A stretch of 64,000 nt of DNA from Trebouxia sp. TZW2008 (taxonomy: Eukaryota > Chlorophyta > Trebouxiophyceae > Trebouxiales > Trebouxiaceae): NCBI GenBank assembly GCA_002118135.1, contig BDIU01000051.1, forward strand, positions 186,001 to 250,000, read 5' to 3'. A model generated the notes under the pieces. It was not told the origin of the DNA, made no database searches, and worked only from the letters and a program-made list of their open reading frames with translations. Position numbers and translations under genes: made by a program. Of the stretch, positions 8,685 to 64,000 are shown in pieces. How positions within the stretch are numbered: position 1 is the first letter of the stretch; each line of letters starts with the position of its first letter.

Positions 8685-11600
8685 TCATCGCCCCCTGCGA
8701 GCAAAGCCCCCACGACCACGGCCAAAGCTACCACCACCTCTGCTAGAGCCGCCACCTCTACCACCGCCACCTCTGCCTCCAAATCCTCCTCTGCCACCGC
8801 CACCATAGCCGCCACCGCCATAACCACCGCCACCATACCCTCCACCACTGCCATACCCTCCTTGACTGCCGTAACTGCTTTCACCACCGTCCCTTGCTTT
8901 CAGTTCAGGCAGCTCCTGAGGTACTAAGAGGAAAGCCCCATGGCCGCCCCCCCTTGCTAGACTGGCACTGTCATCATCATCGTCACTCTTGCCTGGGCAG
9001 GCGCCAATGAAGGACTGCAGCAGTACACAGCATTGGTGAGCCCCAAGACTGGATTCTGTGCTTAAACAAATTTGAAACAGCTCTGGCAAAGATCATCAGT
9101 ACACAGACCCGACTGACGCTGCTTGAATTGCTGTAGGCAATGTGCTTGCCATGGCAAGATCGTGATTATGGGTGACCACAATCACAGATTGCAAGCAATT
9201 GCAGGCATCTGCTTTGAGCAAGCAGCCCAGACAAAGCAGGCACTTGGTCCCCTTCAATTCTCATTGGAGCTTCACCCCCTCCCGCCACCTCAACCCACAG
9301 TGTGACGACACAGTAGAGTGCAACAGAGAAATACCTGTGCAAGCTTGGAGGGCACATCAAACACAGCACTCTTGCCGTTTGCTGTCAGACTCAATTGCTT
9401 CACATTTCTTGCAGATCCCAGACTAAAGTTGACACAACACAGGGCAACAACGCAATAAACTGCAATGAGGGTGTACCTGTACAAGCTTTCAAAGACGGCG
9501 CTCTTGCCATCTGCTGTCAGGCTCATCCGCTTCCAATTTGGCATATCCCAAACACAAGGTCAATACAAGAAAGATAAAGTCAAACTGCTCAGAACCTGTG
9601 CAAGATAGTGTGACATAGGTGTACCTGTGCAAGCTTAGAGGGCACGTCAAAAACGGCGCTCTTGCCATCTGCTGTCAGGCTCATCCGCTTTACTTCCTCA
9701 ACAGTCTCCTCAGAGGGCATGTGCTTCTTCAAAAATGAGAACACCAAGCCTGGCCGCTGAATCTCTGTGGGTGAAGTGAACATGAGGGTTGTGAAGTCCT
9801 CATGCGCTGTCAGCAGAGATCTCGCCTGCACACAAAGAGCTGTCATTGCTCAGCAGCACATGAGACAAGAACTGCACATTGCAAGGGTTTCCCTGCAGGC
9901 AAGGTGAGTGCAAGAGTGGTGAGAGGCTCATGCACTGTCAGCAACTTGACCTGCGCTTATAGCAAGCTTTACTATAGCCTGACACTCAACTGAACTCCAG
10001 ATACAAAGTGCCTGGGGCAGCACACATTGCAACAAGGATATATCTCCAGACAGCGTCTGAGGCTACGCTGCCGTCACACACCTTCACAATCTATGAGGGC
10101 CAATTGATATTCATTTGAGCAGATGTTCACTCATTCAACCATGCATCATTTCTGCTGGGTTGGCAGAAGTCTATACCAAACCAAACAATCTAACAAATCA
10201 TAGCGTTTGCATGAGCCTACCTTGAGCTCAGTGTTGCCAGTAATCTTGGCAAGGGCCAAAGCCAGCGCCTTCTCAGCAGGCATATCCTGTAGAAGCTCAG
10301 CAGCTGCAGCCTGGAACCAGGGAATGATCTGCCCGTCCATCTCCCTTAGTGCCTCCACAGCACGCTCGCCTACATCAATTGAAACTGGCTGTAAGCACAC
10401 TGTACTACAACATTGCATGGATGACTTTGTTGGTAAAGACCATGGAAATGTCAAATAGGGCTTTGCAGGCAGCCGCCTGGGACCTGGGGAGGTTCTGCTC
10501 ATTTGTCTCCCTCAGCGCCTCCAGAGCATGCTCACCAACTTTGAGGCCACAGCAGCAAGCGCTTTTGCATTTGAACTCACTCAACTGTTGTACATCTTGC
10601 ATGCAGCTCATCATCGACACTGTTAATCAAGCACGCGCAGTTACATGGAGACATTTGACACAGCATAGCCACTGAACAACGACAGCTGGCCCCTTGAAGC
10701 ACAGAAAAAGATGCATTTGTCAATTTGGCTCAAATTGGCTTAAAACAACAATAAATGAGAAACAGGATTCACACCTGCAACTTTGGCCATGTCTGCAGGC
10801 TGGGGCGCCCCAGTGCGCTCAAACTTGACCCCAGCCTTCTTCTCTATGAAGGGGATGAGGCCCTCCTTGTTACGCCCCACCAGGGTCACACACACCCCAG
10901 TCTTGCCCGCACGCCCAGTACGCCCTGCAAGCACCAAGCAGTACACTCTGTTGGTCTAGTGTTACCAGGTAATTACCAGCATGCCATAGATACTATCCCA
11001 AAAGCTATTATTTGGCCACAGGCTACGACATGCTGCTGAGCCTGGGTCCTGGTGGAACAGACAATATGCAGCATCAACAGTGCATCGTGCACAATGCTCA
11101 ACCTGTATCCAAACTTCAGGTGGCATGAATGTATGCACACCAGGCCATGGATGGGCTGACTGACTGCAGCTACACTACTGTGTAGTTGAGAGCAACTGGA
11201 GTGCTGACGGCATCCTAGCAGAAGCATGCTGCCTAGCAGGTCAAACTCCAGCATAGCCGACGCCAAAAGCAGTAGCTTAGAGGCGGACCATTACAAGCAT
11301 CATATCAGCGTCAGTGGCGCAAAGCATCAGGCTGCAAGCAATCAGCAGTAGAGTCGCAAGCAAAACAAGAAGTAGAAAAACTACGCGATTGATCTGATCA
11401 GTACCTGATCTGTGAATGTAGGTCTCTGGGTCTTTGGGAGGCTCACACTGCACCACGAGCTCCACACCGCTGATATCTAGACCCCTAGCTGCAACGTCTG
11501 TGGCCACAAGCACTGGGAACTTGCCACTGCGAAAGCCTGCCAAGGTGACTTCTCTTTGACTCTGCAGACACAAGTGCAGTGAGAACCACATCTCTGAGCG

Positions 11601-12053: not shown

Positions 12054-12312
12054 CTGCAGCACCATGCAACAATGAGCTTCAAAGATGCTGAGAACAACAG
12101 CAGATCAAAAACAACAGCAGGTTGAGAAAAGAGGCGAGTGTACAGTGCATGGCATTCGTAGGGACGCTGAGCACAATTGACCTGACAAGCAAAGACTTAG
12201 CATCACTTGCAACTGCAACCAACAAGACAGCTGTCAGGGTGAGACCATGCACACTGTAAGTACTGAACAACCTGCGTGAGCTTGTCTCTTAGGCAGACAG
12301 ACCATAGGGTAT
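12054..12312. other. Region expected to hold the helicase N-terminal exons; none seen
   Basis: The helicase exon at 12053 starts at a clean acceptor, so a coding exon should precede it here or further right. Minus-strand frames in this stretch show no SAT, DEAD or Walker A motif. Confidence 0.5.
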
Positions 12313-14180: not shown

Positions 14181-14181
14181 G

Positions 14182-15068: not shown

Positions 15069-18000
15069 ATGCCAGAGGGATTGCGAGGCATAGTCCTGCA
15101 AGCCGATCTCCTTGCATCCGGCATTTCTGCAGGTCATATACTGAGTTGAAGCTGTCACATATTATCGCGCATCTCCAGCGCAGTTCACTGAACGGACTTG
15201 TCCTTTCTTAGGTCAGGTAGCTACCACAGAGCAGTGCCTGCAGCGTTTGGTCTTGGGTGGCGTTCAAATCTGTGTTGTCAGCCAAGCTGGCACAGCGGAA
15301 GAATACCTGCCCAAGCAACAGCTGCTCACCAAGCACCAGCTGCCTGAAGGCATCACATCAGTGACAACTCAGCCGAGGGTTTTGGCAACATGTCTCAGGT
15401 AAGTCGCCAAGACCACCCTGGGGCACTGAGACACCAGCCAGAAGCTGCTGATGGGTCAAGTTTTCTTTGGCTCCACTGCAGGGCTGTAGCCGCACAAATG
15501 TCTCTTGCTGCCTCAGCTGTGGGGTATGCAGCTGTGGCATCACAGGAGGCGTCAGCTGCATGCAAGATTGCAGGACTTCAGCTCATACCTCTCCGCAACA
15601 ATGTGAGCTGGCTGTCAATTTTGTTGCTGTTGCAGCTGCATGCAACGCCTGACAACACCTTGCTTCCATATTGCAAAAGCGCCAACCTGTCGTCATTAGT
15701 ACATTCAACCCTGTCAGAAAACAAACAAAAATAGCTCAAGCATAGACTTTGCCATGTGCTGCAGATGAACAACGTTCACCTATCACAGCTGCTTAACCAC
15801 ATCGCTAACAGCCACAGCCAGCACAGTCAAGCCCTAATCATGTCTGTGCATCACAAATTCCTGCCAGAAAATAAAGAGCAATTTCTTTTGACAAGCACAT
15901 CACCTGCTGCAGGACAATGTTCCACACTTGTCACAGCTGCTAAATTACATTGCTGACAGCCACAGAAGAAACAGCAATGCCCTAGTTGTGGGCTACACCA
16001 TGAAGCCCTCCAGGGAGAGGAATGTAGCCTCCAGAGGGCTGTTGCCTCTAACTGCCCCTCATAGCATGTGCTTTGTCCCCATTGACTTTGCCCGGCCTTT
16101 GGAGCAGCAAGGACCCTTTGATGTCATGCTGCACAAGGTCAGACTTATCTGCTTGTAGTCTCTTGCTTGATTTACACATTGGCAACATGGCGCGTCTTGA
16201 GGCTGGCAGCAGCAGTCGCAGCATCAGCAGCAGCTACTGAAACATTGACTTGGTCCGACCTTTGGGGCAGCAACGACACTTTGATATCATGCTGCGCAAT
16301 GTCAGCGTGGTTTGACGGTGCTCTCTTGCATATATCATGACCATTGCTCATAGCATGTGCTTTGTGCATTGACTGCGCCCGGCCTTTGGAGCAGCCAGGA
16401 AACTTGACATCATGCTGCACGAGGTCAATTGCTGATGCTATAAAGCCCTTGCCAGTTGAGTCCTCTATCTACCAACGCGTCTAAGGAGACTGTCAGACTA
16501 TGGGCTGCCGTGAGTGCATGCATGCTTTGTCCTGTTGAAGTGTTCAGGGCTGTATAATGGTCATTCGTGTGTGTTCTGGCATGCAATGAGATGTCACAGA
16601 TTGCTGTTGTGATGCCAGTTTGTGCTGCATGCCCATCAGGCTGCATTCAAGCGCAGTTGGATCTGCAGAAGAATGCCTGTGCAACTCTACCCACTCAATC
16701 AGGACGTATGGGCAGATCTTCTATCACACAAACAGCTTTCTGACTGCTGACCTGCAGGCAGCTGGCTGAGTTGATCAGCAGGGGGCCGTTGCAGCTGCCC
16801 TACTTCTCAGCATGCCTTGACAAGCTGCGTGCAGGAGGTCACACAGAGCATTACAGCTGCAAGGGCTAAATGAAAGCCTGTTGCCTCTGACTGCATGGTG
16901 TATGCAGGCAACGGATGAGTTGATCAGCAGAGGGCCATTGCAGCTGCCCTACTTTTCAGCACGCATTGCCTCCCTGGCGGCCTACACCAAGGCACACCCA
17001 TACACACTGCTAGTAGACTGCCTGGAAAAAGTGCAACAGGTCAGCCTCATCAGAAGTTGTTTGAGTGGCTGATTGCAGGCCTCCCACCGAGGCATATTCA
17101 GAATTAGCCGACAAACTGGCTGTCATACTTCCAGAAACCCCCACATATGAGATAGCCAACAAATCACAGCATCTGCCACCTCCTCGTTGCGCATTGTGTG
17201 TGCGTCATGCCTTGAGCAATGAAAGTGAGCATGTGCGACATCATGACCACCTGGTGGCCTGCACCAGGGCACACCCCCAAGCCCTGCTAGCGGACTTTGT
17301 ACAGAAAGTGCAACAAGTAAAGCTCCTGGCATCAATATCTATGTGCTTTGTGGAATGTAGCTGCAATGCTATTGATGGTTGTAAGCAGCTTGACATGTGT
17401 CCCACTGTGTTTGAGAACCATCCCCTGTGATATCCAAACAGCATGTGCACTTGCTGCTGTGAGTGTCTGAGAAATCAGTGCAGTGCATGACTGTTGGAGC
17501 AGAGATCTGACTATGTCATCTGACTATGTCCTTTTTCTTTTTGTTGATTTTCTAATTGATAATTCCAACAATGCAGTGAAGATGAAGCTATTCCAGATAT
17601 CAGCATGTCTTCTGGCCAAGGCAAAATTGAGGGTGCCAGGAGGGATGCAGGCGCTCACATGTCTTGACTTTGATGCATAGCTGCTGTCGAAGTGGTATGC
17701 TGACTGGTTGACTTGTGATGATGCAGGTGATAGACAGGCAGACCTTGACCCGGTGCTTGGAGGAAGCCACAGCAGCTGCTCAGGCACAGGGCTTCCCAGT
17801 GCAGACGCCCCCTTCCGTGCAGGCAAGATCTTTTTCATTATTCAGGCACAGTGATCTTCTCTGCCAATACCCCTTTCTGTACAGGCAGACAAAAATCTTG
17901 GCATCAAGTATGTCATGCATACTGTTGCACATGTCCTGGACAGGCACAGGCCTTCCAAATGCAGATGACCCCTCCGCGCAGGCAAGATCAGTCTCAGCAT

Positions 18001-20326
18001 TTGTTTTGTGCACTTCATTGCTTGAGGCAGACACAAGGATTCTCAGTGCACATGCCCCTTATGTGCAGGCAAGTCTTGTTCTGGCTCTTGTTCATTTATG
18101 CATTTGGTTGGTGCAGCTTGGTGGTTGCACATATGTTGCTTGCAATAACTGTGCTCGTCAACAAGCTTTGCTGGTCATGTGAGCAATCCAGCCAGCAATG
18201 TCTGCTGCAGATTTAGGTCTTGTCAAGTCTCATGATCCACTTTGGAGAGCTGGTCAGACCAGGGACAAAATCTCTTCTTGTAAATTGACACAAGATGTAT
18301 TCTTCTGAGTAAGGTAACCTTGCTCTGCTGTAGGTGGACAGGCTAGGCCCAGATGCTGAGACCAGGCATCTTTTGGCACAAAGCGGCGTCCGACTGCCCT
18401 GCATTGTGCAGCCTTCTGTATCTGATACTGTGTAAACAGCTTCTCAGACTGATGATCCTGCAGGTGGATAGGCTAGGCCCAGATGCTGAGACAAGGCATC
18501 TATTGGCACAAAGTGGCATCCGATTGCCCTGCATTGTGAAGCCGCGGGTGGCATGCGGCACTCCTGAAGCTCACGAGATGGCAGTCGTTCTGCATGAGGC
18601 TGGCTTCCAAATTCTGCAGGTACGATCTATTCTCCTCCCTGCTTGCATGGGCCATAGGTTTTGCCATGCTCTTTTTGCAGATGCATGCTTAGGTTTCATC
18701 CCTACTTCAGCGGTTACAGCGCTTCTGAGCACTTAAATTCTGTCGATTGTACTGTGTGCACAGTTCTGCTGCAAGGGAAAATTTAGACAGCTTGCTGTGC
18801 GTGAGGGTGCATCATATCGGTTTTGCTGTCTGCCCGCCAGTGTCTTTGCATTGCAACAGTCTCTCAGGTATCTACTACACCATTTCTGTGCTTTCTCTTG
18901 ACTTCTGGTATCAACAGCCCCAAACGGTGGGCTTGCTGTCAGCATATTGCTTCAAGCCTTGTTTGACTGGTGGCACCTGCTGATGTGACAACAGGGCTCT
19001 TGTTGCTCCAGGTGTCCTTGCCAGGTTGTGTGCAGCAGTTCATCAATCACAGCAGCGTGCTCCACAAGGTGTATGTCATTGGCGATCAGGTGAAGTATTT
19101 GCTCAGCTCCCCTCTCTGGCAGTAGTCCGATGAAGCTGAGTTGTCTTGTGTCCATTTCATGGCAGGGTGCACTGCTTGTGTGAGCAAACCACCTCAGAAT
19201 GCAGTGCCAACTGCATCATTCAGGCAATGCACAGGTGGCGCTCGTGCAAAAGGCCTGTTTTGTGTAATGCTTGCTGCACAATCAAATGTTTTGCAAATGG
19301 GCATTCATCAGAAGAGAGATCAAACTGAGTTTATGCACTGCTTTGGAATACATATGTTCAAACTGAGTAAGTGTGCAGATGCATGTGGCACAACGGCAGT
19401 CCATCCCCAACCTGCCTGCAGCACCAACACAAGCAGCCAGCCTGCCTCCAGTCATTGCCTTTGACAGCCTGAAGTCCTTGCCACAGAGAGACTATTTGCA
19501 GCCCCACTACGAGTCACAACAGACCCCTCCAGGTACAAGTGCGCTGTAAGATTGCTGGTTGTCAGAAATCATCGCTGGGTTTTGTTTTATGCAGAGGTAC
19601 TGCACATAGAGAAACATTGTAGACAAAAGGAACAAGTCCACACCTGCATCATACCAAAGTGCTTCGCAGCCTGCTAGCTGCTGGATTGTCACTATATGGT
19701 GTGTTCTGCATCATACGCTTCAATTTTCTGGCACTGCTACATCTGTGGACTCACTTGAGCGAAAAGCTGCAGCAGGGATTGACAAGTGCTATTGCCGCAT
19801 TCTGAGACGTCAGCGCAGCTGTTGACAGTCATCACAAGTGCAGCTATCTTGCAAGCCAGCAAATTTGCAGAAATGAGCTGGTTTTCAGGAGCAGATGCAA
19901 ATGCGCTCTCAGCGTCGCATTTGACTGTGTGCTGCTGTTGCTATAGGGTCAAGCTTGAGAAGCGAGGTTGTGCAAATCATCACAGAAGAGTTGAGGAGAA
20001 AGCTAGAGTTGACGCTCTTTGGCTATGACATTGTAGTGGAGGATGCAACAGGTATAGTTTACCATGATTTATTGCAGCCACAGTTGCCATGATTATTGCT
20101 ATGGTATTTGGCTGTGACCTGCCAGCAACACCTGCAAAATTCTTGGATAGTCTGTCAGCTGCCAATTGTTTGCTTTGCAGGTGTACACTTCATCATTGAT
20201 GTCAACTACTTTCCCTCATACAAAGAGTTTCCTGAGGCTGCAAAAGCTCTCTCTGAGGTATTGAAAGCAGCTTACCACAAGCACAGACAAGACGTGCCAG
20301 CTCCATACGATGGACAAACCATATGA
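15069..20326 (+). CDS. ITPK: Inositol-tetrakisphosphate 1-kinase (ATP-grasp), complete 489-aa model
   Basis: Phosphorylates inositol tris/tetrakisphosphates on the route to phytate, in the cytosol. Twelve exons join in phase: 15069-15132, 15212-15398, 15482-15602, 15913-16137, 16908-17039, 17727-17822, 18464-18619, 19012-19089, 19235-19261, 19400-19532, 19947-20051, 20181-20326. The ITPK core starts near residue 130 (VVGYTMKP, FVPIDFARPLEQQGPFDVMLHK). It continues with LPCIVKPRVACGTPEAHEMAV (ATP-grasp lysine), QQFINHSSVLHKVYVIGDQ, LFGYDIVVED, and the metal-binding DVNYFPSYKEFPE (Asp448/Asn450). An N-terminal extension of about 125 residues precedes the kinase, as in some plant ITPKs. Exon 9 is only 27 nt. 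The intron after exon 6 begins with GC. Introns hold many decayed exon copies. TGTAA about 140 bases past the stop may be the poly(A) signal. Confidence 0.9.
15760..15866 (+). repeat. Acceptor-side copy of ITPK exon 4
   Basis: Just upstream of exon 4 (15913), a CTGCAG acceptor is followed by a peptide starting NNVHLSQLLNHIANSH, matching DNVPHLSQLLNYIADSH in the working exon. Similarity fades after about 100 bases and no donor follows. Confidence 0.85.
16243..16428 (+). repeat. Two donor-side copies of ITPK exon 4
   Basis: Two segments (16243-16305, 16345-16428) repeat the exon-4 ending: the PIDFARPLEQQGPFDVMLHK coding sequence and its GTCA donor. Frames are disrupted (CATGCTGCGCAATGTCAG, CATGCTGCACGAGGTCAA). 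They sit downstream of the working donor at 16138. Confidence 0.85.
16755..17320 (+). repeat. Partial copies flanking ITPK exon 5
   Basis: Upstream, 16755-16830 repeats the exon start (ELISRGPLQLPYFSA) after a CAG. Downstream, about 17240-17320 repeats the exon end (peptide ending DFVQKVQQ, versus DCLEKVQQ in the exon) followed by a GTAAAG donor. The working exon is 16908-17039. Confidence 0.85.
17930..18070 (+). repeat. Two donor-side copies of ITPK exon 6
   Basis: At about 17938-17990 and 18022-18070, the end of exon 6 recurs: CAGGCACAGG, then a CCCTCCGYGCAG-like end, each followed by GCAAG. The non-canonical GC donor itself is therefore copied. Confidence 0.75.
18330..18421 (+). repeat. 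Acceptor-side copy of ITPK exon 7
   Basis: A near-identical copy of the first 85 or so bases of exon 7 (VDRLGPDAETRHLLAQSG) with its acceptor lies about 130 bp upstream of the working exon at 18464. The second half of the exon and its donor are missing. High similarity suggests a recent duplication. Confidence 0.9.
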
Positions 20327-20582: not shown

Positions 20583-20677
20583 TGAAATATTGCTCTGATG
20601 CAGCAGCATGTCAGCTGGAAACAGCTTGATAACGAAATGAGAAGGACGGAGTCATTCATTGCGACTTGAGTACTGGG

Positions 20678-23600
20678 TCACTTCTTGGCTTTGCCCCGTG
20701 CTTTTGGCGCTGCTCCCTCATCATCGGCCTTTCTTTTGCCTGCAGCTGCCTTGCCTACAAGTGATCAAGGAGGCATAATGCACATGGCTTTGTCAACTGT
20801 CACAAGCCAAGCTGACTGTTGTGCATTTTGGGGGTGTTGATCAGCTGTCATGCTGCACCTGGTGCGTGCAAACGACCATATCAGCTGACACATATCACAC
20901 AAGGCCACTGAGCCTAGACAGCATCAGAGCCAATCATGTAAACAGGCAGATGATGCTCACAGACAAAGGCCCATTGCATCATGAGATGTTGACATCACAG
21001 CCAATCATGCAGGCAGGCAATGGTCACAGATACAGGCGCATTGCATCATGTGGTGTTGACATGACAGCAGTACCTGCAGCTGCCTTGCCTTTCCCCTTTG
21101 CTGCCGCCGCTTTCCCCTTGCCTGCAATAGGTGCATGATGTGTTAATCACAGTTAGCAAAAGCTGCATGAGCCTTCTGACTACACACGCTGCTCGTGTGC
21201 TGTAAGCCAGGCATGTAATGTCAATTTGCTTCAGTAGTTGGCACCATAAACACACAAAGTTGTCTCCTGTTCTCCTTTCAGTAATATAGGTGCTATCAGC
21301 CGGATAATGAATTATGGCCTTTGCCCAGAGCAATGGGATGCATGCTTAGTACCTGCCTAGCAATTGACCAGCGGTACGGGCATGACACCAACATTCACAG
21401 TTGCACACAAGATCACCTTTGGCAGGTGCTGGGGCCTCTGGTTCTGGGGTTGCTTCTTCTTCTGCAACTGCTGGCTCAAACACTTCAAGGGCTTCCACCT
21501 GCACTCACAACAAAGCGGATGAGGCACAGTAAAAAGGATGATGCCAAAAGAGACAAACGATGAACGCTACGGCTGACTCGAGGAACTGCGCCAAATGCAG
21601 GGCGAACGCATCAAGCTTGGACATCTGCATGTGCAAGTTGTCATGTTGAGTACAGTGAATTTGCACAATGACCTGCCAAACTTGTCAGCCTGGAGAGTGC
21701 TATCATGGTTCAGGAAGCATCTACCAACCTGAGCATGAGCTTGCTTGCAAGCTGCCAGAGACTGGCATGACAATCTGCGAAAGCATTTTGCAGCTTATCA
21801 TTGCCACTCAATGCACTTGAGTCCAGGCTACAGATGTAGCCTATCCTCATTATGACAACTCTCTGCTGTTGTAGTCCCAACACGCCTGTTTCTTTGCCAG
21901 CTGTCCTGGCTGCTTGTTGATGGCATGCCAGATGATGCATGGGACTGCACCTGCTTGCTGCCAGCTTGAACCAAGAAGAGGGTTGTGCCAGTGCTTCACT
22001 AGTGAGTCAAAATGCACTTGACATTTGTATATTGGCTTTTGGGTCCTCGTCTACTGCAGCCTCACATTGCACTGGGGGCCTGACCTGCTTGCTACCAGGC
22101 TGAACCAGGAAGAGGGTGTGCCCAATGCCGCATGCCACTTGGTGCGTATGCAGCCCCTCCAGCGCCACCACCTTGTCAGGGTTGGCACTGCTCTTCTTCC
22201 CGTTGGGACCAAACCCTAGCTCACCATTCTGCGCTTGGCCCCTGCAAGGGGGTCGTATCATCATTGCCACCAACATGCGGTCTAATAGGATTGTATGACC
22301 CAGCTAGATGCATACAGAGCAATGAACTGCCTCCAAAAAGTTCTGTCCACAGCCAGTCTGTGCCTAGCCAGCACATGTTGTCTCTACATGCTACATTGGT
22401 ATGCATTGACCATCGGCAACAGTGCCTGTTGAGCTGGCCTAGCCCAACATGCGGTGCTGTGTCATAGCTCACCATTTTGCGCTTGACCCCTGCAATAGCC
22501 GCATTTTGCGATGTTGTTGCTGGCTTATCCATTTGGTCTATTAAAGTGCAAATGATTTGTGACGTTGTCTTTACATGTTGCACTATCATGCGTCAACACC
22601 AGCGCTTTTTTGTGAGCCCAAGCCCAGTAGTGGCGCAGTATCATAGCTCAGCGTTTCACTCTTGGCCCCTGCAACAGCAGCATACGCTGTCTTGACCTGC
22701 TACGTTGTCATGCATCCACACTAGGGCTTTTCAAGTTGGTCCAAGCCCAGCAATGGTGCTATGTCATCATCTGTCGTTTTGCACATGGCCCCTGCAAATA
22801 GTAGCATGTGCTGTCTCTACATGCGGAATTGTCATGCACCAACGCCAGGCAACAGCGCACAGCGTTGTGCTGCAAGCCTTAGCTCAAGATTCTGCACAGT
22901 AGCCGCAAATGCTGTCATACGCCTACATGCTGTACTGACATGCATCAGCAACGGACAACAGTGCTGTGTTGCGTAGGTTCCAAGCCCAGACGGGGCGCTT
23001 TTCAGGTGCCCAGTTTGTCCACAGCTGAGCAGCCACTCGTAACTCACAGTGCGGTCTTTTCACAGCAACATGAGCTGGCAGCAGCTGCTGAGCTGTGCAC
23101 AAGTCAAGAGAATGACAAAGCATCACCCTGAGGCTTGGAATACTGAGGCATAGATGCCTCAGAACTGGTGAGTGTCTGTTTCGTCATGTCCAAATACTCA
23201 CATGGTGAGTGCTTGTAGAGGACACTGTGCCGCACACATCGACTGCGGACATCAGACAGTTACAGAACGTCTGAAGCTGTTGCAAGTAATGTGGTCTAGT
23301 CCAGCAATCAGCAACACTTCTGTTGAAGGACAGCATGCCACAGCACAATTGACTGATAGCCAAGCTCCTTGAGGCGCAACCCATATCATGTTGCAATTGA
23401 CGAATCCGCAGCAACTGCGCAATGAGTGGTGTCATCAACCGCATGATGACTAATTTGTCAGCAGCAATTCAGTGGAGGGTGATGGAGCATGTGATATTTC
23501 AGCAGTCAATATGGTGGACTGTGAATCTACCATGTGATGGTTGACTGATCAGCAGCAACTGCGTAGTGGGTGGCTCCAGCAGCCATGTGGCGAATGCCCC

Positions 23601-51000: not shown

Positions 51001-54000
51001 AGCTCACTGCTATTGCCCAAACACAACCAAGCCCACATTACCAATACACAGGATACAGTATCTTGTGAGACAAGTGTTGCCAAGCCTTCAAGCAGAGCCC
51101 GTAGGTGCATGTCAATGCACGGCTGTACAATTTGCTGCAAACCCTCCCAACCCTCCCAATCTCAATCTGTTGAGTCAATTCAATTCCTGCTTGATGAAGG
51201 GTGCAGCTGCGACGTTGCTGCAGCAGAGACAAAGCATGCAACTCTGTCAAGCATGTAACTTTGCCTTGCAGGGCTTGAGCAAAAGCTGCATCTACTGTGG
51301 TGACGAGGAGAATGACTTGGTAGCCCTGGCTGCTCCTGATATTTGTGGAGCCATTCGCGCTGGCAATTTGCTCATATATTACAAAGCTCATGCAGAGGCA
51401 GTGCAAATACATAGAACAAGATTGTCTCTGCAGCTGCCTGCATAGGCTAAGAAAGAGCTCAAACTCCACAATTTGTGCTGTAGGGCTTGGGCAAAAGTTG
51501 CATGTACTGTGGTGATGGAATCAATGACCTCATTGCCCTAACTGCTGCTGATGTTGGTGTGGCCTTTGGTGCTGGTGATTCACTCACAGCAGTCCCAGCG
51601 CTTGATCACTCGAGTGGCAAAGAAAGCTTACGCAGAGCCAGTCCCATTATATGCAACAAGACTGTGTCAGCAACTGTTTGCATATCCACAAATCACACCT
51701 CCAACTATACATCTCTGTCTTGCAGGGGCTGGGCAAGAGCTGCATGTACTGCGGTGATGGCATCAATGACCTCATAGCCTTGGCTGCAGCTGATGTGGGT
51801 GTAGCCATTGGTGCTGGTGACGTATCTGCGGCTGCCTGCATATCAACAAAGAAAAGCTCAGTAGCAGGTATGTCCTCTCAGCCTGCCCAGCATGACTCAG
51901 CTAACCTTGATCTTTCATCATTGGTCGTTGTGCAGCATGATATGCCTGCTTGCTAGTCAGCGTTTTTGAAACCCAACTGTGTGCATACAGGAGCACCATG
52001 TTATTGATACTAATTCAGAGCTTGAATACACAATATTACAGGCTTGCATGGTGTCTTGTGGCGTTCAGGCCTGTGTGACGTCCTGCACTCTGTCAATGGC
52101 CTTGCATGCTCGCTGATCCTCTGCTTTGTGTGGCCTGCAGAATTGGTCATGGTCCTCAGGGAAACCAGAGCTGCTCAGACTATCAAGCTAGCTGCCATCA
52201 GGGTGAGTTGACCTGGTCCCCAACTGTCTCTTGGGCAAGTCATCATGTGTGTACGCCATATGTTCAATGTCTGTCAAAATTCAGTTGGATGTTGTCAAAC
52301 CATGGGCATACACTGATTAGTGAGATAGCAATGTGGCTTCCCTGCCTTTTTACAGTCCTCTGCCCATTCAATCTGCCACTTGAAAACCTGCATGTGCAAC
52401 GAAACATGTGCGATTGTCAAATCAGCAGCATTGGGCTGCTGCACTGACAGTCAGGTTGCTTGTGTTGCAGTTCATGGTGCTGTACCAGCTGCTGCTATCC
52501 TTCATGTTCAACATCTCCTTCTTCCTGGACGGCTCACAGCCCAACCTGCGTCAGGTAAGAGCTCAAACCTCATGCAAAGTTTGTCGACCATGCTTTTCGT
52601 GGGCTTATGCACTGCAAACTTGATCCACAGTGCTGGTTTTGTGAGTCAGTGACTTGCACACAATGCTTGCCAGACCTGCATATGCAGCATGTGGGTTTGT
52701 GCTATTCTTGCACATGTGTGATGTGTGATGCATACTTTTTGCCATAAACACGTTGCAGACAACATTGGCTCATGGCGATGCAGGATTATATCCACACTGT
52801 TTTGTCTCATTTCATCTGGGTGCCCATTGCACAAGGAGCATTGCTACACTGCAGAGGGGTGGTCTTGCCTTGGCCGCAATAGCCTTCAGCACCTGAGTCA
52901 GCACTTACTGAACTTTACAAATCTGTGACATTGTGCCATACTATATTTTAGGGTTTACCTAAACCCTAAAACCTCTGCAGAGGGGTCTGCTGCATTGGCA
53001 TTGGACAAAGTGTGCAATTAGAACCATCTGAATCAGCGCTGACTCAACTTCTCATCCACCCCAATCTGCCCAATGGTTGCATGTTAAAAGGGGCTGCGGC
53101 AAGTGTACTTCCCAGAATTTGGCAACAAGGGCAGCTGACATTTGCATTGGCAGTCTCTCACAAAACCAGCATGTGCTTCAATGCAGAGAGGTGTTCTGGA
53201 CTGGACTGCAGTGGCCTTGGGCATAGTGTGCAGCCTGTGTCCTGCCAGCACTGACTCAATTTCACAAAACCAATACTAGCATTGATTGACGTTCACAAAG
53301 CCATTACAATCTTCCTCAACTGATGCAGAGGGGTGTTCTGGACTTTACTGCATTGGCCTTGGGCATAGTGTGCAGCCTGTGTCCCGCCAGCACTGACTCA
53401 ATTTCACAAAACCGATACTAGCATTGATTGAGTTTCACAAAGCCATTACAATCTTCCTCAATTTATGCAGAGGGGTGTTCTGGACTTGACTGCATTGGCC
53501 TTGGGCATAGTGTGCAGCCTGCGTCTGACCAGCACTGACTCAATTTCACAAAACCAATACTAGCATTGATCGAGTTTCACAAAGCCATTTCAATCTTCCT
53601 CAACTCATGCAGAGGGGTGTTCTGGACTTGACTGCATTGGCCTTGGGCATAGTGTGCAGCCTGCGTCCTGCCAGCACTCAGCTGATCAGGGAAAAGCCTC
53701 CCCAGTGGCTCTGCACTGCAAAGGATTTCATCATGCTCAGCGCCACCATAGCATGCTCAGCATGCATCTGTGCTGCCTGCAATGGGCACATGACTAGGCA
53801 GTCATGGTTCCATGGCACAGGCACCAGTCACAAGGTATTACATGCTGGACCTTGTGCAGTGATCTTAATAGAGACGCAGGGCCGCAGGTCACATGCGTTG
53901 CGTTACATTGTAAATCAGCAATGCACTGTGAGGTAGCTGTGCCAATTGTAGCGCATTGCCTTACAGAGCAGCAGTGCCGTGTTGGGTTGTTTGAGTCCTC

Positions 54001-55656
54001 AGATGTGTGTGTTTGATGCTTTGAGCAGTTTGCAAAATGTTCACTGTGCTACGTCGTGTGCGCGTTGAATCAAATGGCTCAAGATCAGGAACGCATGTGA
54101 TGAACGTTGCATCTTTGCTGCAATGACACGGGGTAACAGCCACGCATGTCTGCATGACACACCTCAGCCTTGACTGCATGCCCTTGCAGGCTAGATCACA
54201 TACACTCCATGTTCCCCTGCCTTCAATTCTTTTCTCTGAGCTTTGCAAGTTTGTTACTGCCATAAATGTGCTGTGCAGAATCCGGTGGTGACCATGTCCT
54301 GGAGTCTGGCGCTGTTTCAGGTACACCAAACTGTTTGCACAAATCTTGCATTTGCATGTGTCCTCAGCGTCACTGTCATGCTGCATCAAGTGCTGCATCA
54401 AAGATGTCTGTGCCCAGCCGAGATATCTTCAGAGCACAGTTGTTGTTACAGCATTCTGCACGTTCTTGCCTTGAAATCTTGCGATGCCTGGGGTTGTGTC
54501 CACGGAGAAGCTGTGGAAAGCTGCCTGCCTCTTCAAAGGCTGAATGTTCTCAACAAAAACAACGTACAAATCTAGAAATCTCTACAAATGCAGGTGCTCA
54601 TCACGCCTGCTTTGACATTTCAAGTGGACGTACACAAGTTCTGCAAGCGCATCAGCACAGCTGAGATCAGCCTGACCATGGCTTACCTGACGGTCTTCAC
54701 CATCATATGCTTCCTTGGTGTACCACCTCTTGATCCACTGGACTACTTCCAGTTTTACCGGGTGAGCTGCTTGTCTCAACCAGGCTGAAACAGCCAACAT
54801 ATGCATCAAACTGCTGCAGCGCTGAGCTGTTGATATGCTGCTGAGCAAACAGCAGAACACAGGACTTGCATGATGCATACGCATGGAGATACCTGACTGG
54901 TTTCGCCATCATATGCTTCCTTGTGTAACACCTCTTGATCCACTGAACTACTGCCAGATTTATTGGGTGAGCTGCTGACCTGTCAGGAGTCACCTGTGTT
55001 GCTCTGCAGCATGTTGCGCTGTAGTGATACATGATACAGTACAGCATACAAGTGAGCCATCTGACTGGCAACAGTAGTCATGTTGATGTTCAGGACAACA
55101 GCTGTGGACACAACAAACTGTGCAGAACAGACTACACAGAGTTGTTTGACACAAAGCACTGCTATGCAGCTTCTGTCAGCTTTCTGTGCATTGCCACTTA
55201 TGACATTCCATGCCTGACACCATGCATCATCTCTGAGTCATACATTCCCGCAACAGGCATGAACGATGTAATAGCAGTGTAGGCGCAGTTTGCATTCATC
55301 AGACTGAGTACACAACCAAGTGCTGGTCAGAGGTCAAGTATGTAGCAAAGTCCAGTTTGGTCCTGTGTCATAGCCCGCTTGACAATCGCTTGCAGGGCAA
55401 TTTTCTTGACAATTTACGGTGTTTGCAATCTATGCAGGCAGTGCAGTTGGCTGCAGTAAGCACAAAAATGTTCCTTTGGGACTTTACGTGGCATTGATTG
55501 ACTGTGTCTGTGCAGTATCCTTGGTCTTTCAGATGGAGGGATTCCTTTCTGGGTGGTTCGGTCGTTGCAGTGTCCCTCACCTTACTGACTGCCTTGAGAC
55601 TCTTCCTGGAACGGCATGAGTTGCTCATGAAGCGTCGGCGTATTGTCCCAAGCTAG
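42097..55656 (+). CDS. ATP13A: P5B-type P-type ATPase (ATP13A family), near-complete model of about 1175 aa
   Basis: Endolysosomal/vacuolar cation or polyamine pump of the ATP13A2 group. In-phase exons: 42097-42162, 42248-42433, [a small exon at about 42533-42610, uncertain], 42960-43137, 43350-43498, 43918-44096, 44492-44615, 44850-44972, 45579-45719, 46173-46469, 46733-46927, 47332-47562, 48229-48434, 48692-49115, 50002-50169, 51726-51867, 52141-52202, 52471-52554, 53613-53834, 54279-54320, 54594-54761, 55516-55656. The N-terminal FTGYQTRQW plus a hydrophobic hairpin is P5B-like. Domains follow in order: LYGHNDM; actuator LVPGDIVVV ending EESMLSGE; TM4 VPTGIPT; phosphorylation DKTGTLT (Asp472); LKRFEF and ARGAPTSIEE (N domain); LMATGDY; FSRMKPHQKGQ; hinge CGDGIND (898-904); six C-terminal membrane segments. 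Departures are SGE for TGE, PTGIP for PPALP and GDY for GDN. The intron after 43137 starts with GC. Confidence 0.9.
45370..45480. repeat. AATC-tailed short dispersed element, copy 2
   Basis: TCAATCAATCAATCAATCAG, then AATCATTCAATCAACC, is followed by GTAGCCAGCTGTGACTGATT and GGAGTTTCTGGCCTGAAAGCAC, matching 37338-37391. It lies in an ATPase intron. Confidence 0.6.
48070..48185 (+). repeat. Decayed upstream copy of ATPase exon 48229-48434
   Basis: CATGACTCAGGAGCCGTGAG, AGGCTCAATTCCAAGTCTTTG, and AGCTGTTGGGCTTGTC repeat the middle of the exon (MTQEQLEAQVQAFELLGL). Stops and deletions break the frame. It ends before the working acceptor at 48228. Confidence 0.85.
49440..49965 (+). repeat. Three acceptor-side copies of ATPase exon 50002-50169
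   Basis: At about 49450-49545, 49675-49775 and 49855-49965, a GCAG acceptor is followed by the exon start GQAQCCVTGPVLEHMLQLGD in progressively better condition. The nearest copy has an open frame for 36 residues, while the farthest is full of changes. A weaker trace lies at 49365-49420. Spacing is about 150-220 bp. Confidence 0.9.
50161..50905 (+). repeat. About 110-bp minisatellite grown from an ATPase exon end and donor
   Basis: The working exon ends CTGTACCAG, then GTCATTCATGG. This junction and the following 100 bp (CAGCAGCAGCACCTTCCGG, ACACGGCGCCCTCT, TAGTATAGATTGCCCTGTC) repeat with starts near 50161, 50275, 50388, 50502, 50615, 50686, 50797 and 50865. The first units are nearly identical and later ones diverge or are shortened. 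Each unit carries a potential donor (CCAGGTCATTC) and ends CAACAACAG, a potential acceptor. Confidence 0.93.
51272..51600 (+). repeat. Two extra copies of the ATPase CGDGxND exon
   Basis: Copy 1 (from 51272) reads GLSKSCIYCGDEENDLVALA. Copy 2 (from 51484) reads GLGKSCMYCGDGINDLIALT. The working exon is 51726-51867 (GLGKSCMYCGDGINDLIALA). Both extra copies follow good acceptors (TTGCAG, CTGTAG). Copy 1 has lost two of the hinge residues (GDEEND). Neither has an evident GT donor at the place corresponding to the working one. Spacing is 212 and 242 bp. Confidence 0.93.
52850..53612 (+). repeat. About 141-bp acceptor-side ladder of ATPase exon 53613-53834
   Basis: Units beginning TGCAGAGGGGTGTTCTGGAC occur at about 53185, 53326, 53467 and finally 53610 (the working exon), with older traces at about 52850 and 52974. 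Each unit carries the acceptor, about 75 bases of exon (LDLTALALGIVCSLRPAS) and about 65 bases of intron (ACCAATACTAGCATTGATTG). Confidence 0.94.
52946..52971. repeat. Perfect 12-bp inverted repeat built from telomere-like TTTAGGG
   Basis: TTTTAGGGTTTA, CC, TAAACCCTAAAA: two head-to-head plant/alga-type telomere words form a perfect hairpin with a 2-base loop. It lies in an ATPase intron within the 141-bp ladder region. Confidence 0.9.
54885..54975 (+). repeat. Donor-side copy of ATPase exon 54594-54761
   Basis: ACCTGACTGGTTTCGCCATC, ATATGCTTCCTTGTG, and ACACCTCTTGATCCACTG end in ATTGGGTGAGC, repeating the last 80 bases of the exon and its GTGAGC donor with frame-breaking changes. Confidence 0.9.
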
Positions 55657-56930: not shown

Positions 56931-56935
56931 ATCAA

Positions 56936-57340
56936 GCAGTGGCAGTCCAGCAGCAGGGATCAGAGCTGCAGCTCTGAAGTCAGATAAGTAGTGAAGTTGG
57001 TCATTGAAATGTGACTTTGCAACAAGAGCTGAGGTGGCTCTTGACTTGTGCAATACATAGGTTGGAACGCTTGTCACGGACCCGCCTTCTTGGGAGAGAT
57101 TTGCTGACTTGTCCTTTCCTGTTGCCCCTTGCCCTTTTCATCCTCTCTGCTTCCTGCCCATCACACAGTGGCAGGCCAGCAGCAGAAATCAGGGCTGCAG
57201 CTTCTGAACTCAGGTGAGCAGTCATTGCAATTTCACTTTGACGCAGAAGCTGATGTGAAGTTGAACTTTTGCTTTGCTGTATCACACAGTGGCAGGGCCA
57301 TCAGCAGGCATAAGAGCTGCATCCTCCAAATTCAGGTGAG
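56936..57340 (-). repeat. Three copies of the PQ-loop gene's C-terminal coding tail
   Basis: GTGGCAGGGCCAGCAGCAGG, then GATCAGGGCTGCA, from the last exon recurs at 57287-57340, 57168-57215 and 56936-56985, downstream of the stop. Spacing is about 120-230 bp. On the sense strand this is the LIPAAGPAT coding sequence. Confidence 0.88.
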
Positions 57341-57403
57341 CACTGATCTGAACACCCCTTTTGCACAAGAGCTGCAGTGATTTTTCACGTATGAATCGAT
57401 CTA

Positions 57404-60400
57404 TCAAACAGTGGCAGGGCCAGCAGCAGGGATCAGGGCTGCAACTTCTGGCCGATCTCTGTTCTTGCGCTTATAGTAGATGACTTGGCACACAATGGAG
57501 AAGTCCAGTATGGCTGAGCCCATGGCTTCCAGCAACCATGGCAGCTTAGGAACCACAAACTCCCGAGCTGTGCTCCTACACACATTGATAACAACAAACA
57601 GTAAGCTCATGACATGAGCACGCTTATCAAATGAGCTATTCAGTAGCAAACCAATGCAATTGTCTTGCAAGTGCTTGATGTTTAAATTCCAAATAAGGAT
57701 GCTGTGGATATGGCGACAGTGTCCTTGAGCAAATGCAACAAAACGTTGAAATGACAAGTACTAGCACTGTGTTGCCACTCAAGTGCTCACTCATGTGTCC
57801 TCAGGTACGCAGAGTCTTGGTTTGTGATGCACCATGTGATTCTGCAAGTCCATAATGCCATAACCGCCCCTGCACGGGGAGCTGGCCACTGACCCTGCTG
57901 CCAGGCATAAATGCACAAAATCAAGACCAAGAACCAGCACATGGCCTGCATGAAAGGACTGCAAAGGATTGCAGTCTCATCCAACCCACCTGACAAACAT
58001 GCTGGCCATGTTTGTGTTGCATCCTGACCCAACAGTACAAACACAAACAAGCACGCTGCTTTCCCATAAAAGGGCATAAATTGCACATTGGGACTAACCT
58101 GACAAAGATGCTGGCCACATATGTGGTGCTGCCAAGCACCAGCAGCACAAACATAGGCAAGGACAGCCCAGTTGTCATGCCGCGCCGGTAGTTCTTGGCC
58201 AGCTGTGGAATGCGTGAACCCACATAGGAGAAAGTCATGATCCAGCCAAGCAGGGAGCCTAATATGACTGATACCTTGCCTGCAGAACAGCACCAAGTCT
58301 TGGTCTTTGTGTGTGGTTCTTGACCAACTGTGGAATGCGTGAACCCGCATAGTAGAATGTCATGACCCAACCGAGCAGCGATCCCAGCACAACTGATAGC
58401 TCACCTGCAAACAAGCAATCTACTATCATGCGCCTACAAGTTACAGTTTGCAATTCAAAAATTCAGTTGCCAGTTTGTACATGGATTTACCCAGCCCCAC
58501 AGTGAGTTGTGTGGTACCAACTGGTAGTCCTTATCAGCGGTGGAATGTGAGAATCAACATAGGAGAATGTCATGCCCAAGCCAAGCAGTGAGCCTAATCT
58601 GACTGCTAGCTTACCTGCAGTCAAACCAAAAACTGCCTGACAGCTTGTGTTGGTCAACACAGAAAGAAAAAAAGAAAAGAAAAGTCTATGCCATCATAGG
58701 CGTCTTAGCAGGAGTCTCTGTCTGTAGAGGCATTACCATCGACAGTTTACACTTTGCAACTGATGGGTTGAAATTTGTTTTTGATTTATTGATAGACTCA
58801 GCCCATGAAGTTGATGTGACCAATAGCTTGCCTGCAGAGAAGCAGTGAGACAAGTGATATGTGCATGACCAACCTGCATGCATCCTTGTATCGCATGAGC
58901 TGTGTACACCTGACAACAGCACCAAAATGGAGAGTCATCACCACATCAACAACATCACCATGCACAGTGCATTAGCATGTAACAAGCACACCATGACAGC
59001 GTATCACCATGTGTACATCTTCATCACGCATGGTGCACAAGTATGTCTCACTTGCTGATGAAGCATCTGCATCTGACAGCAGCACTCGACCAGAACTAAT
59101 ACCGTGGTAAGCTGCAGGGTTTGTTCCTGTTTGAAGCCCTAGCCTGACAGACTGAAAATCTGTCATTTGGGTTGTCGAAGCCAGAGGCAGCCCAAGGGTC
59201 ACCACCCCACAGCCCAACAGCATTAAACCTGTGAAAGTCAACTTTAGTGAAGCATTTTGGGTCACAGTCAAGCTTGTCAGAAGAAGGTGCATATGCACAA
59301 CGTTACAGCATCGATATTGTCTTGCAGAGCATTGATGTGTAATTGCAATTTTTGCTGGCATGCAACTTAGACAAGACATACAGCGCAGATCATTACATGT
59401 AGTCCCAGCTCTTAGCAATCTCAAGCAAGCTGTATAAATTTGGCCTAACAGATCAGCAATGCATGTGCATGACTGCAATTGAGCTTGCAAGCCCGCTGCC
59501 ATTGTGACTTTGAGTCATCAAATGCAATGGCAGCAATGCTTCAAGGGCATGTAGAACTGTATTGCTGAGCACTCGAGCTCAGACTTCCTTCTACGGCCGT
59601 ATCAGAGCACTGTTGGTAATCAGGTTCCACACACTGGAGTGATGCTGCTTTTGAAAACTTCCACTGACCTGTTGATAGGCTGTTTAGGTAGCGGCTTGAA
59701 GGCACAGTGTTGATGTATTGATCATCAGACTGATTACTCTGTGGCATGTGTTCACCCGCATGAAGGGGCAGGTTGTTAGGGCTTGCTTGGCCGTCTTCCT
59801 GTATTGTTTGTGCTGTGTGTCCCAGAAGTTGATCTGCTTGCTGTTGTTGCAGTGGCTCAATATCCAGGGTCTTGAGTGTGCGGCGGGCCCGCCAGTAGTT
59901 GTAGTAAATATTTTGGAAGTTCAGGATGCCGTCACATGTGCAGAACAGGATTGCCATCATGTACTGTGTTGGCATCTGCATCCAACAAGTCAAAAAACAC
60001 ACTTGTATTGGGCTGTCATTTCAAAAGTGTGAGTTGCTTGCATCAGACATGAAAGCGTGTAACTTACAGCGCCTGTCAAGCAAAGTCCAACCAGGTTACA
60101 AGCATCTCCCAGGCTCCAGACCACAATCATGCCAGCTGATAGTCCCTCTGAGCTGCCGCTCATACAATTCAGTGCTATTTGTGGCAGGAAGCAGTTTGCA
60201 AAGAAAAGGACGGACGAGATGCCAAACAAGAAAGAGACAAGATCCTGCAGATTGTCAGCAGACACGTTGCTTCCGGCTGCTTGCGACGAATTGCCAGACG
60301 CATGCTTCCGCTTTTGATACCTTGTCTGAGCAAACGCAGTCGTCAAACGCTTTGGCCCATTCGGCACATCCCGGGCCGCAAATGACCATCTAAACGCGCT

Positions 60401-61770: not shown

Positions 61771-64000
61771 ATGGGCCCTTCAAAGAAAGGGAAGGCCGGT
61801 CACAAAACCAAAGGCACCGGGAAGGTACAGGGAGAGATCAAGGCATTCAGACACTCCCAGCCTCAGGTGAGCAAGTCAGATCTTGTCACAATGTCGTATT
61901 GCGCTCAAGATCTATGATGAACTAAGTGCAAAGTGCCGTACAAGCAAATGCACAGGTGCAAATCAGCAGTTGCATTTATGCTAGCCCCAGCAATGCACCA
62001 TTTGGTTTCTATACCAATAGGTGCTAACATCATGGCTCAGCTGCAGCTGCTGATTGCACCTGTGCATACCCAGTCGCTGGGTGTCAAAGCCTGCCTAGCT
62101 CGCATTTGTAATGTATGAATGAATGCAGCTGCTGCCACATGAGAGGATGTCAGTTGTTGAGTCCTATTGGGAGAGCTTGAGGGATGAGCAGAGGGTGGAG
62201 CTACTCAGCGTAGACTTGAAGGATGTCAGGCTCAGAGCAGCCAAGCTTACTGACAAGGCCAAGAAGCATGCAGGTAGGATTGCTGTGAAGATGAACTTTG
62301 TTTGGGCAGTTACCAGGTACAAAGGCCAGAGGTAAACCCAGGGACACTTGGCAGACAGCATGTGTACAGGGACCGCCGTTCCCTCCGTGTTCAATACAAG
62401 TGGTGTAGGTTATCATAGGACTAAACTGGTTGAAGACAGTTGATTTCTCCAGTACGTATCAGTTGGGCCTGCTGAGGCTGTCTAGCATGCGCTATGGAGT
62501 GAATGAAATCTTCCTGCTGCAGCGTTTCTCTGCTGAAAGCCATCATTCATACGCATGCATCTGCGACAGAGGCTGCTGCTGAGCCATGCAGCAATCTGGC
62601 AAACAAAACTTCTGTTCAGTTGATGCATGCTCAAATGCCTGTTGCTGAGCTACAGATGACGACAGCAGTCAGGATTTGCTTGACACCAAGTTTTGCAGCT
62701 GAACCTTGGGAAGCACAAAGTTGCACAAAGTATGTAGCTTCTTTGTCACTCAGCTTGCATTAAAACATTTCTCAGACTGGCAGACTTGATTTGAATCACA
62801 TCTGTACGGATTTGCAGTATCCAGGCAAGTAGTGTGGCAAAGCTGCATGTGAACTCCTGACTGGCACCTGCTAACGTACCCACCACATACCTGCTAATCG
62901 AAGAGCATTTTGCCGTATACTTGTGGCCCTACGACAAGGTGCTGACAATGAAGCGTCCGGCTCAGGGCGACAAAGAGCAGCTTGTGAATGAGGAAGTGCA
63001 GCTCAACACCCTGTGCCTGCAGAGATGGTTGTCGCACTGCTGAGCTTCCATTACATTGGTTCATGTCTGCGGAGCCATGTGCTGAGTCCGCAGTCATGGT
63101 CTGATGTTACAGAAACCCAGCTGTGCAAGAAAAAAAGCAGAAAAAAGCTACGCCATGAGGCGTGTGTGAGAGGCTTCAAACAGACCGAGGCATACCTTTA
63201 TAGCTATGCAATAACCTCTGCATAAAACAGGAACACCCCCATGCAAATTCGTAATTAGCCAGCCTGGCAAGCCAGCTGCCAAATCCACCTGCCATTTATG
63301 CAAACAGTGCAATGATGACAGCATGAGCGCCTATCATCAGTCACAACTATCCCATCACAATTCCACTCAGAATTGGAAAAAGCAATATAAACTGCAGGCG
63401 TTTGCAAATGCAATGTGTGCCAAACGGGCTGACTTCGCACAGGTCAGCTTTCTACTGATTCCTGCTCTCAAAGCAGCCTCATGAAAAAGAGGCTCCTGCT
63501 GAGACGCCTCACGGCATAGCCTTTTCTTTTCATTGTTTTTCTTTCCTTGTTCTTTTGTTTGAAATGGAACAAATGCAAGTGTGTTGGCAGTGCGTCAAGC
63601 GTGGTGAGCTGCTGAGCTACATGATGGAGGCGCTATTGCCGACTGTTCAGAGCTGGGCCTGGATGGCATCTTAGAGAAGGGCGTTAAGCGGCTGCTGGAG
63701 GAGTCAACTTGGAAGCTGTGGCAATGGCCGCCGGAGGACAAGGTCTTCTTCAATGCTGACTCTTTCAGGTGATTCCTAGCCTGTGCTATACCAGCTTCAA
63801 CGGTTCTGCAAGGCTTGCTGAAACATTCAGGTGATTTGCCTGCCTGTGATGGTTTTGTGTGCTCTGCCAGTCCACATGCTGGTCAAGGTCCTGCTGGTAT
63901 CATGAGACAATGCTATGGCAAGGCTTGCTGGTTGACTGTTGACCCATCAGCATGACGATGATGCACGGTCTGCAAAGCGATGCACTGCAGACAAATAGTC
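61771..64000 (+). CDS. Paralogue of the 333-aa unidentified protein, 5' part only
   Basis: Function unknown. Three exons are visible: 61771-61866, 62129-62273 and 63630-63768; the gene runs off the window. Exon 1 (96 nt) and exon 2 (145 nt) have exactly the lengths of the copy at 41108. Exon 3 is 139 versus 142 nt, with the same phases. The products align: MGPSKKGKAGHKTKG with MAPPKKGKTGHKNKS; LLPHERMSVVESYWESLRDE with LLPHERKSIVESWWESLSDE (about 38 of 48 residues of exon 2 identical by eye); ESTWKLWQWPPED with KSTWKLWQWSPEG. Exon 3's donor (TTTCAGGTGATT) is copied once at about 63829. A frame at 62880-63040 (EEHFAVYLWPYDKV) looks protein-like but does not fit the model. Confidence 0.75.

Follow-up and report, generated by a model that had tools for sequence, protein, structure and literature searches.

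The DNA described here is a stretch of 64,000 nucleotides from the chlorophyte Trebouxia sp. TZW2008 (hereafter "the window"; contig BDIU01000051.1, C50:186001-250000), which belongs to an assembly of 68.5 Mb in 527 contigs and has a G+C content of 49.1% (computed by script). It contains genes for a helicase (Helicase_C/GUCT), ITPK, RCC1, a galactosyltransferase, a U-box protein, a P-type ATPase and a PQ-loop protein, all supported by Pfam and all from families that our gene finder recovers, together with a gene that an earlier note on this sequence had called NDUFAF6 and that is squalene/phytoene-synthase-like by Pfam. The best named relatives of the predicted ITPK protein are four Trebouxia proteins with 58-79% identity. 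A search of Rfam gave no match at the gathering thresholds. Our subject is the introns of these genes, which can hold, next to a working exon, decayed copies of one edge of that exon together with its splice junction, in some cases as ladders of several copies.

A total of 314 kb was analysed, comprising the window and ten 20-kb stretches outside it (264 kb together) as well as 50 kb held out. We placed the ten stretches at round coordinates on contigs of the assembly; the held-out sequence, which lies elsewhere on three contigs also used for stretches, was excluded from the training of the gene finder. This program was self-trained on long open frames, and the exons in all counts are modelled from sequence alone; it settled on the donor CAG/GTRAGY and the acceptor TGCAG/G (slash at the junction), with a median intron of 341 bp and a median internal exon of 154 bp. 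Repeat pairs below 36 bits, offsets below 20 bp or above 2 kb, and genes with less than 300 nt of coding sequence were excluded. For the tests on nearest copies, exons had to reach 80 nt and spacers had to fall within set lengths, and terminal edges and short alignments were also removed; this left samples of 46 (spacer divergence), 47 (intron-part homology) and 58 (splice dinucleotides). Terminal-edge pairs are included in the gap counts, the intron length and coverage figures, the mosaic-tract test, the decay comparison of 20 ladders and the first codon-position run; terminal exon ends were not counted as splice edges in the polarity and ladder counts. Unit counts, the exon borders of the ATPase gene and a 38-bp identical block were determined by eye.

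Polarity and scale of the copies

Local repeats in this DNA are almost exclusively direct: 259 direct pairs stand against 3 inverted ones in the 314 kb. The window and the ten stretches contribute 225 direct and 3 inverted pairs (at least 36 bits, within 2 kb), the held-out sequence 34 and 0, and the window alone has 84 and 1. The repeats are thus direct and local, as tandem duplication demands, and distant repeats are few within the 20-kb pieces. Pair identity is mostly 70-93%, and most copies are too diverged for exact placement of breakpoints. First-order resampled versions of 14 pieces (one version per piece) gave no repeats at E<=1e-3. Local repeats occur in each of the ten stretches (2 to 25 pairs), and the process is uneven along the genome, being sparse in two of them: S9 (C62:100001-120000) and S17 (C155:200001-220000) have just 3 and 2 pairs despite many modelled exons.

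The earlier note had claimed that copies upstream of an exon carry its acceptor and start, and copies downstream its end and donor. Counted in this way, 92 of the pairs that involve a single splice edge lie on the right side in the 314 kb and 8 on the wrong side. The right-side pairs divide into 51 acceptor edges with an upstream copy and 41 donor edges with a downstream copy (3 and 5, respectively, on the wrong side), and the remainder of the 137 exon-intron pairs is internal (17), covers the whole exon with both its edges (10) or is terminal (10). The window (22 right, 2 wrong), the ten stretches (53 and 5) and the held-out sequence (17 and 1) all have the same polarity; of the other pairs of the window, 3 are found where the last PQ-loop exon ends, a position that is no splice edge, and 12 are internal or whole-exon. 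By comparison, a control in which the exon annotation was shifted randomly 60 times yielded 34.5 right-side pairs (maximum 48) and 20.2 wrong-side pairs (minimum 7), and the claimed polarity is therefore confirmed.

Under the shifted annotation about 31 internal and 22 whole-exon pairs are expected, and both classes are depleted in the real one. All pairs that touch an exon number 137, compared with about 114, which is only a little above random placement; a strong targeting of exon edges is not apparent. With the message-damaging classes thinned and the total near random, random tandem duplication and selection on the spliced message suffice, and the polarity requires no machinery directed by splicing. 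The 2.7-fold excess of the right-side class over random expectation can partly reflect longer detectability, because one partner of such a pair is conserved.

The extent of the phenomenon is smaller than the earlier note had stated. Exon-edge copies occur in 21 of 42 multi-exon genes, and not in nearly all of them. A detectable copy was found at 59 of 850 distinct splice edges and in 64 of 425 introns, and copies detectably account for 9,032 of 168,769 intron bases (5.4%); introns "largely built of dead exon edges" are not supported by this value, although the gene, edge, intron and coverage figures are lower bounds, since older copies escape detection. Copy-bearing introns are longer than the others (median 476.5 vs 326 bp, p=0.003). 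Among the genes that had been named, the helicase, ITPK, RCC1, NDUFAF6-like, P-type ATPase and PQ-loop genes do carry copies, whereas the "333-aa paralogue" has merely a sub-threshold repeat (34 bp, 82%, 29 bits, at 63754/63816). No exon-edge copy above threshold was found in the galactosyltransferase and U-box genes of the window.

Decay, decoys and spacing

Changes were polarised in splice-edge ladders with the second copy as outgroup. The exon had 13, 17 and 38 changes at codon positions 1, 2 and 3, the nearest copy 35, 40 and 33 (sites: 539, 546 and 536), which corresponds to rates of 2.4, 3.1 and 7.1% in the exon and 6.5, 7.3 and 6.2% in the copy; the picture is unchanged when terminal edges are added. 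Gaps in the exon-copy alignments shift the frame in 84 of 91 cases and preserve it in 7. The working exon is live, and the intronic copy is dead and decays neutrally.

The decoy splice sites of the copies behave in a similar way. A decoy AG or GT/GC is retained in 47 of 58 copies (26 of 34 acceptors, 21 of 24 donors), approximately the neutral prediction from a divergence of about 11% (codon position 2) over two bases; 20 "anomalous" edges in this analysis had been selected by eye from the spacer-divergence results. Decoys are consequently neither strongly retained nor strongly purged, and their loss is close to neutral. The suggestion that the copy nearest to the working exon is the best preserved found no clear trend, being true of 13 of 23 ladders at splice edges and 13 of 26 with terminal edges included.

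For one ITPK junction the choice between the exon and its copy can be followed in related proteins. P0025 and P0028 (both Trebouxia) and P0026 are uninterrupted in the protein alignment at the junction before exon 18464-18619; this lack of an insertion fits the acceptor that adjoins the intact exon, but not the upstream copy at a distance of 130 bp. In P0024, 30 residues are inserted precisely at this junction, possibly through use of a decoy or an error of its gene model, and P0027 is without a counterpart of the exon; both sequences come from annotation and may reflect faulty models.

The nearest copy lies 120-175 bp away at 43 of the 59 splice edges, but in only 4 of 30 intron-only and 6 of 23 intergenic repeats (Fisher's test, 8e-9). 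Kolmogorov-Smirnov tests of edge spacing gave p=0.00008 against intron-only repeats (0.0004 with terminal edges) and p=0.047 against intergenic repeats (0.11 with terminal edges). The exon and intron portions of the spacing are anticorrelated (-0.57), with a mean sum of 153 bp (sd 27, n=46). Short spacings could be eliminated by selection against decoys within about 100 bp; alternatively, nucleosome-sized events could set the peak.

Origin of the copies

We regard it as probable that random short tandem duplication, filtered by splicing and by selection on the message, leaves the edge copies behind as neutral remains. Short tandem duplications would arise throughout the genome, those at exon edges mostly with a length of about 110-190 bp, putatively in break repair or replication. 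A duplication within an exon or of a whole exon would usually harm the message and be lost, while one over a single splice junction would survive if splicing stays at the site adjoining the intact exon: duplication of an acceptor would strand the copy upstream, duplication of a donor downstream. The stranded copy and its splice site would then decay neutrally and persist as a decoy that the spliceosome presumably ignores, and repeated events would create ladders and longer introns. The exon-derived part may later be rewritten from the live exon by gene conversion or template switching, which would explain its younger look compared with the intron part. Abundance, direct orientation, polarity, neutrality of the copies and retention of decoys are demonstrated by our data. 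The earlier note had likewise proposed tandem duplications tolerated because splicing removes them, and this part of it explains the polarity and agrees with the neutrality of the copies; its view of introns largely made of dead edges and of best-preserved nearest copies is not supported. The unequal decay of the two halves of a repeat and the preferred spacing were absent from that note.

Several observations weigh against this explanation. The exons derive from our own gene finder without RNA and are misplaced in the repeat region of the ATPase gene. In 12 of 59 cases the edge and its copy are separated by more than the length of the modelled intron, with a modelled exon intervening; some of these exons may be false. 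Non-exonic repeats show the 120-175 bp peak only weakly (10 of 53), which is unexpected if one random process makes both edge and non-exonic repeats. Moreover, joint duplication of both halves of a unit, followed by drift in both intron partners, predicts roughly twofold divergence of the intron part relative to the exon part, but spacer homology falls below the 5% quantile expected from exon-part divergence in 33 of 46 edges. The cleanest test sets two dead copies side by side, so that selection on the working exon is irrelevant: in 18 splice-edge ladders the exon-derived part scored 0.67 per bp and the intron-derived part 0.25 (null -0.09), the former being better preserved in 16 of the 18 (p=5e-5), and 20 ladders including terminal edges gave 0.67 and 0.23. 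A simulation with score cut-offs in place of the detection threshold produced a gap of only 0.01-0.02 (0.64-0.67 for the exon part, in agreement with the measured value, and 0.62-0.66 for the intron part). As for the added step of conversion, no mosaic tracts were found, and differences are clustered at p<0.05 in 3 of 67 copies.

The unequal decay can have several explanations: rewriting of the exon part from the live exon, frequent omission of the intron part from the copying, or faster evolution of the intron part. Suggestive of rewriting is the nearest helicase copy, in which a 38-bp block is identical to the exon between diverged flanks. We entertain, with more doubt than confidence, the idea that dead edges may stay young because they are rewritten again and again from the live exon as far as the junction, in which case they would form a standing reserve of near-perfect decoys at a preferred distance of about 150 bp (one nucleosome) that the spliceosome must distinguish from the true sites. 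A rival reading ties the copying to the junction, for example by template switching at TGCAG or by a transcript-derived template; it would transfer an exon edge and a few intron bases to a place about 150 bp away and leave the remainder of the intron behind. Many alignments indeed end 3-10 bp beyond the junction, spacers are often without homology although the copies are 85-92% identical to the exon, and the better survival of exon parts between dead copies is as expected. However, homology of the intron part near the expected tandem position is significant in 22 of 47 edges (p<0.05, 300-bp targets) and exceeds the null's 95th percentile in 13 of the 18 ladders of dead copies, and several young arrays (W 53613, S13 19860, S21 14123) consist of complete tandem units, the z-scores of the array and spacer tests relying on shuffles and being inflated by composition shared near splice sites. 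An anchored comparison of the flanks with decoy flanks gave no overall significance (24 pairs, p=0.25). Considering also that exon-touching pairs barely exceed random placement, we judge junction-tied copying to be unlikely.

Better preservation of exon-derived parts than of the adjoining intron and retention of decoy sites might also be expected if the copies served as alternative exons, regulated decoys or selected noncoding elements. A function is nevertheless decidedly unlikely, since changes in the copies are spread evenly over codon positions at a rate near that of third positions in the exon, gaps shift the frame and splice sites are lost neutrally. If introns were gained through tandem duplication of a piece of exon with AGGT, the duplicated piece itself becoming the intron, the polarity would be identical; this mechanism has been described (PMC3443670, as far as the consulted parts of that paper go). 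It also predicts a spacing close to the length of the intron, and this signature was mostly refuted: the spacing has a median of 0.32 of the intron and falls within 0.85-1.15 in only 5 of 59 edges, which renders this origin very improbable for the copies as a whole. Least credible of all is an assembly artefact or a mobile element of the introner kind. Three probes from the window matched another contig (C432) at 100%, so the assembly has some redundancy, but collapsed or duplicated reads would not yield pairs of mostly 70-93% identity, and each copy belongs to its own exon. A mobile spacer was rejected as well: two spacers were tested and were found only at their own locus and its C432 double, and distant repeats are few within the 20-kb pieces.

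Gene parts duplicated in place are known from internal gene duplication or tandem exon duplication and from mutually exclusive exons; Gao and Lynch reportedly worked on internal gene duplication, and Vaughn and Bennetzen (2014) are said to have treated small tandem duplications. The exon-edge copies are likewise in-place duplications of gene parts. They differ from tandem or mutually exclusive exons in that a dead copy of only one edge is present and whole-exon pairs are rarer than expected; a tandem exon would keep both splice sites and its frame, whereas only 10 of 137 pairs include both edges and nearly all gaps shift the frame.

Among the mechanisms described in the literature, tandem genomic duplication is a source of intron gain (PMC3443670; PMC4974935). 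Our copies share with it short in-gene tandem duplications that splicing renders harmless or useful (PMC3443670), but what is seen here is the lengthening of introns and the copying of junctions that were already present. Among short insertions (<100 bp) of the human genome, tandem duplications are described as the most frequent class, and small ones have been attributed to the repair of breaks with overhangs (PMC8355091). They resemble the copies analysed here in being direct, local, tandem and short; the latter, however, centre on about 150 bp, are old and filtered by splicing, and their origin in repair is putative. As introners do (PMC9860276), the process shapes introns in bulk across the genome, but the copies stem from their own exon, and neither of the two tested spacers yielded a shared mobile sequence. 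In the largely open-access literature, judged by titles and the openings of abstracts, we found no description of such polarised copies of exon edges as a property of a genome, and the consulted parts of two Trebouxia genome papers (PMC12712428, PMC11523091) do not mention tandem duplication in introns.

The pattern is real and, for the most part, accounted for by ordinary tandem duplication filtered by splicing, from which the signal of unequal decay stands out. It provides, within a single genome, a fossil record of duplications made harmless by splicing, and natural tests of splice-site choice, in which two similar sites lie about 150 bp apart, one apparently used and the other dead. Gene prediction in Trebouxia may select such decoys. 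If the age gap between the exon and intron halves holds under proper annotation, it would be a sign that an exon and its debris rewrite one another locally, and this would be unexpected.

Inventory of the window

Exon-edge copies and the exons they derive from in the window (positions within the window; pairs, repeat pairs; TRF, Tandem Repeats Finder)
Feature	Position	Strand	Basis
Helicase working exon, donor end copied downstream	9625..9825	-	gene model, Pfam Helicase_C/GUCT, repeat pairs
Nearest dead copy of end + donor of helicase exon 9625..9825, 148 bp off; holds the 38-bp identical block	9470..9532	-	pairs; block by eye
Second dead copy of end + donor of the same exon, 290 bp off	9332..9393	-	pairs
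Decayed acceptor-side copy of helicase exon 10221-10369, AG lost	10469..10539	-	pairs, dinucleotide check
ITPK working exon, copies on both sides	15913..16137	+	gene model, pairs, Pfam, protein alignment
Acceptor + start copy, upstream of ITPK exon 15913-16137	15757..15817	+	pairs
End + donor copy, downstream of ITPK exon 15913-16137	16243..16305	+	pairs
Second end + donor copy, downstream of ITPK exon 15913-16137	16347..16427	+	pairs
Acceptor + start copy, upstream of ITPK exon 16908-17039	16753..16819	+	pairs
End + donor copy, downstream of ITPK exon 16908-17039	17250..17318	+	pairs
End + GC-donor copy, downstream of ITPK exon 17727-17822	17941..17989	+	pairs
Second end + donor copy, downstream of ITPK exon 17727-17822	18028..18081	+	pairs
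Acceptor + start copy, 90.7% identical, upstream of ITPK exon 18464-18619	18328..18413	+	pairs
End + donor copy of exon 22085-22261 (RCC1 region)	21941..21989	-	pairs
Acceptor-side repeat block of RCC1 exon 23527-23727, partly modelled as exon	23780..24051	-	gene model, pairs
End + donor copy of RCC1 exon 24409-24512	24218..24285	-	pairs
Decayed (77%) end copy of NDUFAF6-like exon 29626-29859; alignment ends 22 bp before the donor, hence internal	29931..29991	+	pairs
31-bp end + donor copy of NDUFAF6-like exon 29626-29859, 565 bp off	30400..30430	+	pairs
Three acceptor + start copies (starts 49455, 49685, 49861) before ATPase exon starting 50002	49455..50001	+	by eye, self-matches
Seven decayed end + donor units (first ones with 113-bp period) after ATPase exon apparently ending 50199	50276..50922	+	TRF, self-matches, by eye
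Two decayed acceptor-side copies (starts 51272, 51484) of ATPase GDG-IND exon apparently starting 51726	51272..51725	+	self-matches, by eye
Young three-unit array (142 bp, 93-94%) spanning acceptor + start of exon 53613-53834	53181..53606	+	TRF, pairs
End + donor copy of exon 54594-54761	54890..54976	+	pairs
Copied end of last PQ-loop exon 57404-57575, with stop codon region; no splice edge	57160..57206	-	gene model, pairs
First acceptor + start copy (exon-like start 58404) of PQ-loop exon 58099-58279	58313..58413	-	pairs, Pfam PQ-loop
Second acceptor + start copy (exon-like start 58614) of PQ-loop exon 58099-58279; modelled as exon	58523..58620	-	self-matches

The 44-bp spacer of the ITPK copy before exon 18464-18619 has no detectable flank homology. 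The largest ladder of the window is the one that follows the ATPase exon apparently ending at 50199. The gene finder fails at the ATPase repeats (49.4-51.8 kb), and this region was interpreted by eye instead; a 171-aa open frame on the minus strand within the decayed ladder (50453-50968), which was modelled as a gene, is probably a chance product of the repeat. One PQ-loop copy was modelled as an exon. The end of the last PQ-loop exon is also copied at 56931-56973, so that the coding end and stop region are duplicated downstream of the gene; these copies follow the rule of the tolerated side without splicing.

The gene finder included an (ATGGCA)n repeat of about 20 units (12311-12431) in its helicase model, as a first exon of low complexity. 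The genes at 39525-41772 and 61054-63773 are paralogues in opposite orientation, 70-80% identical in matching stretches, and are nearly without exon-edge copies. The probes 16820-16902, 18328-18619 and 54772-54889 match C432 at 100% with a constant offset (the probes alone were compared), and about 38 kb may thus be present twice in the assembly, as a redundant contig, a haplotype or a very recent duplication.

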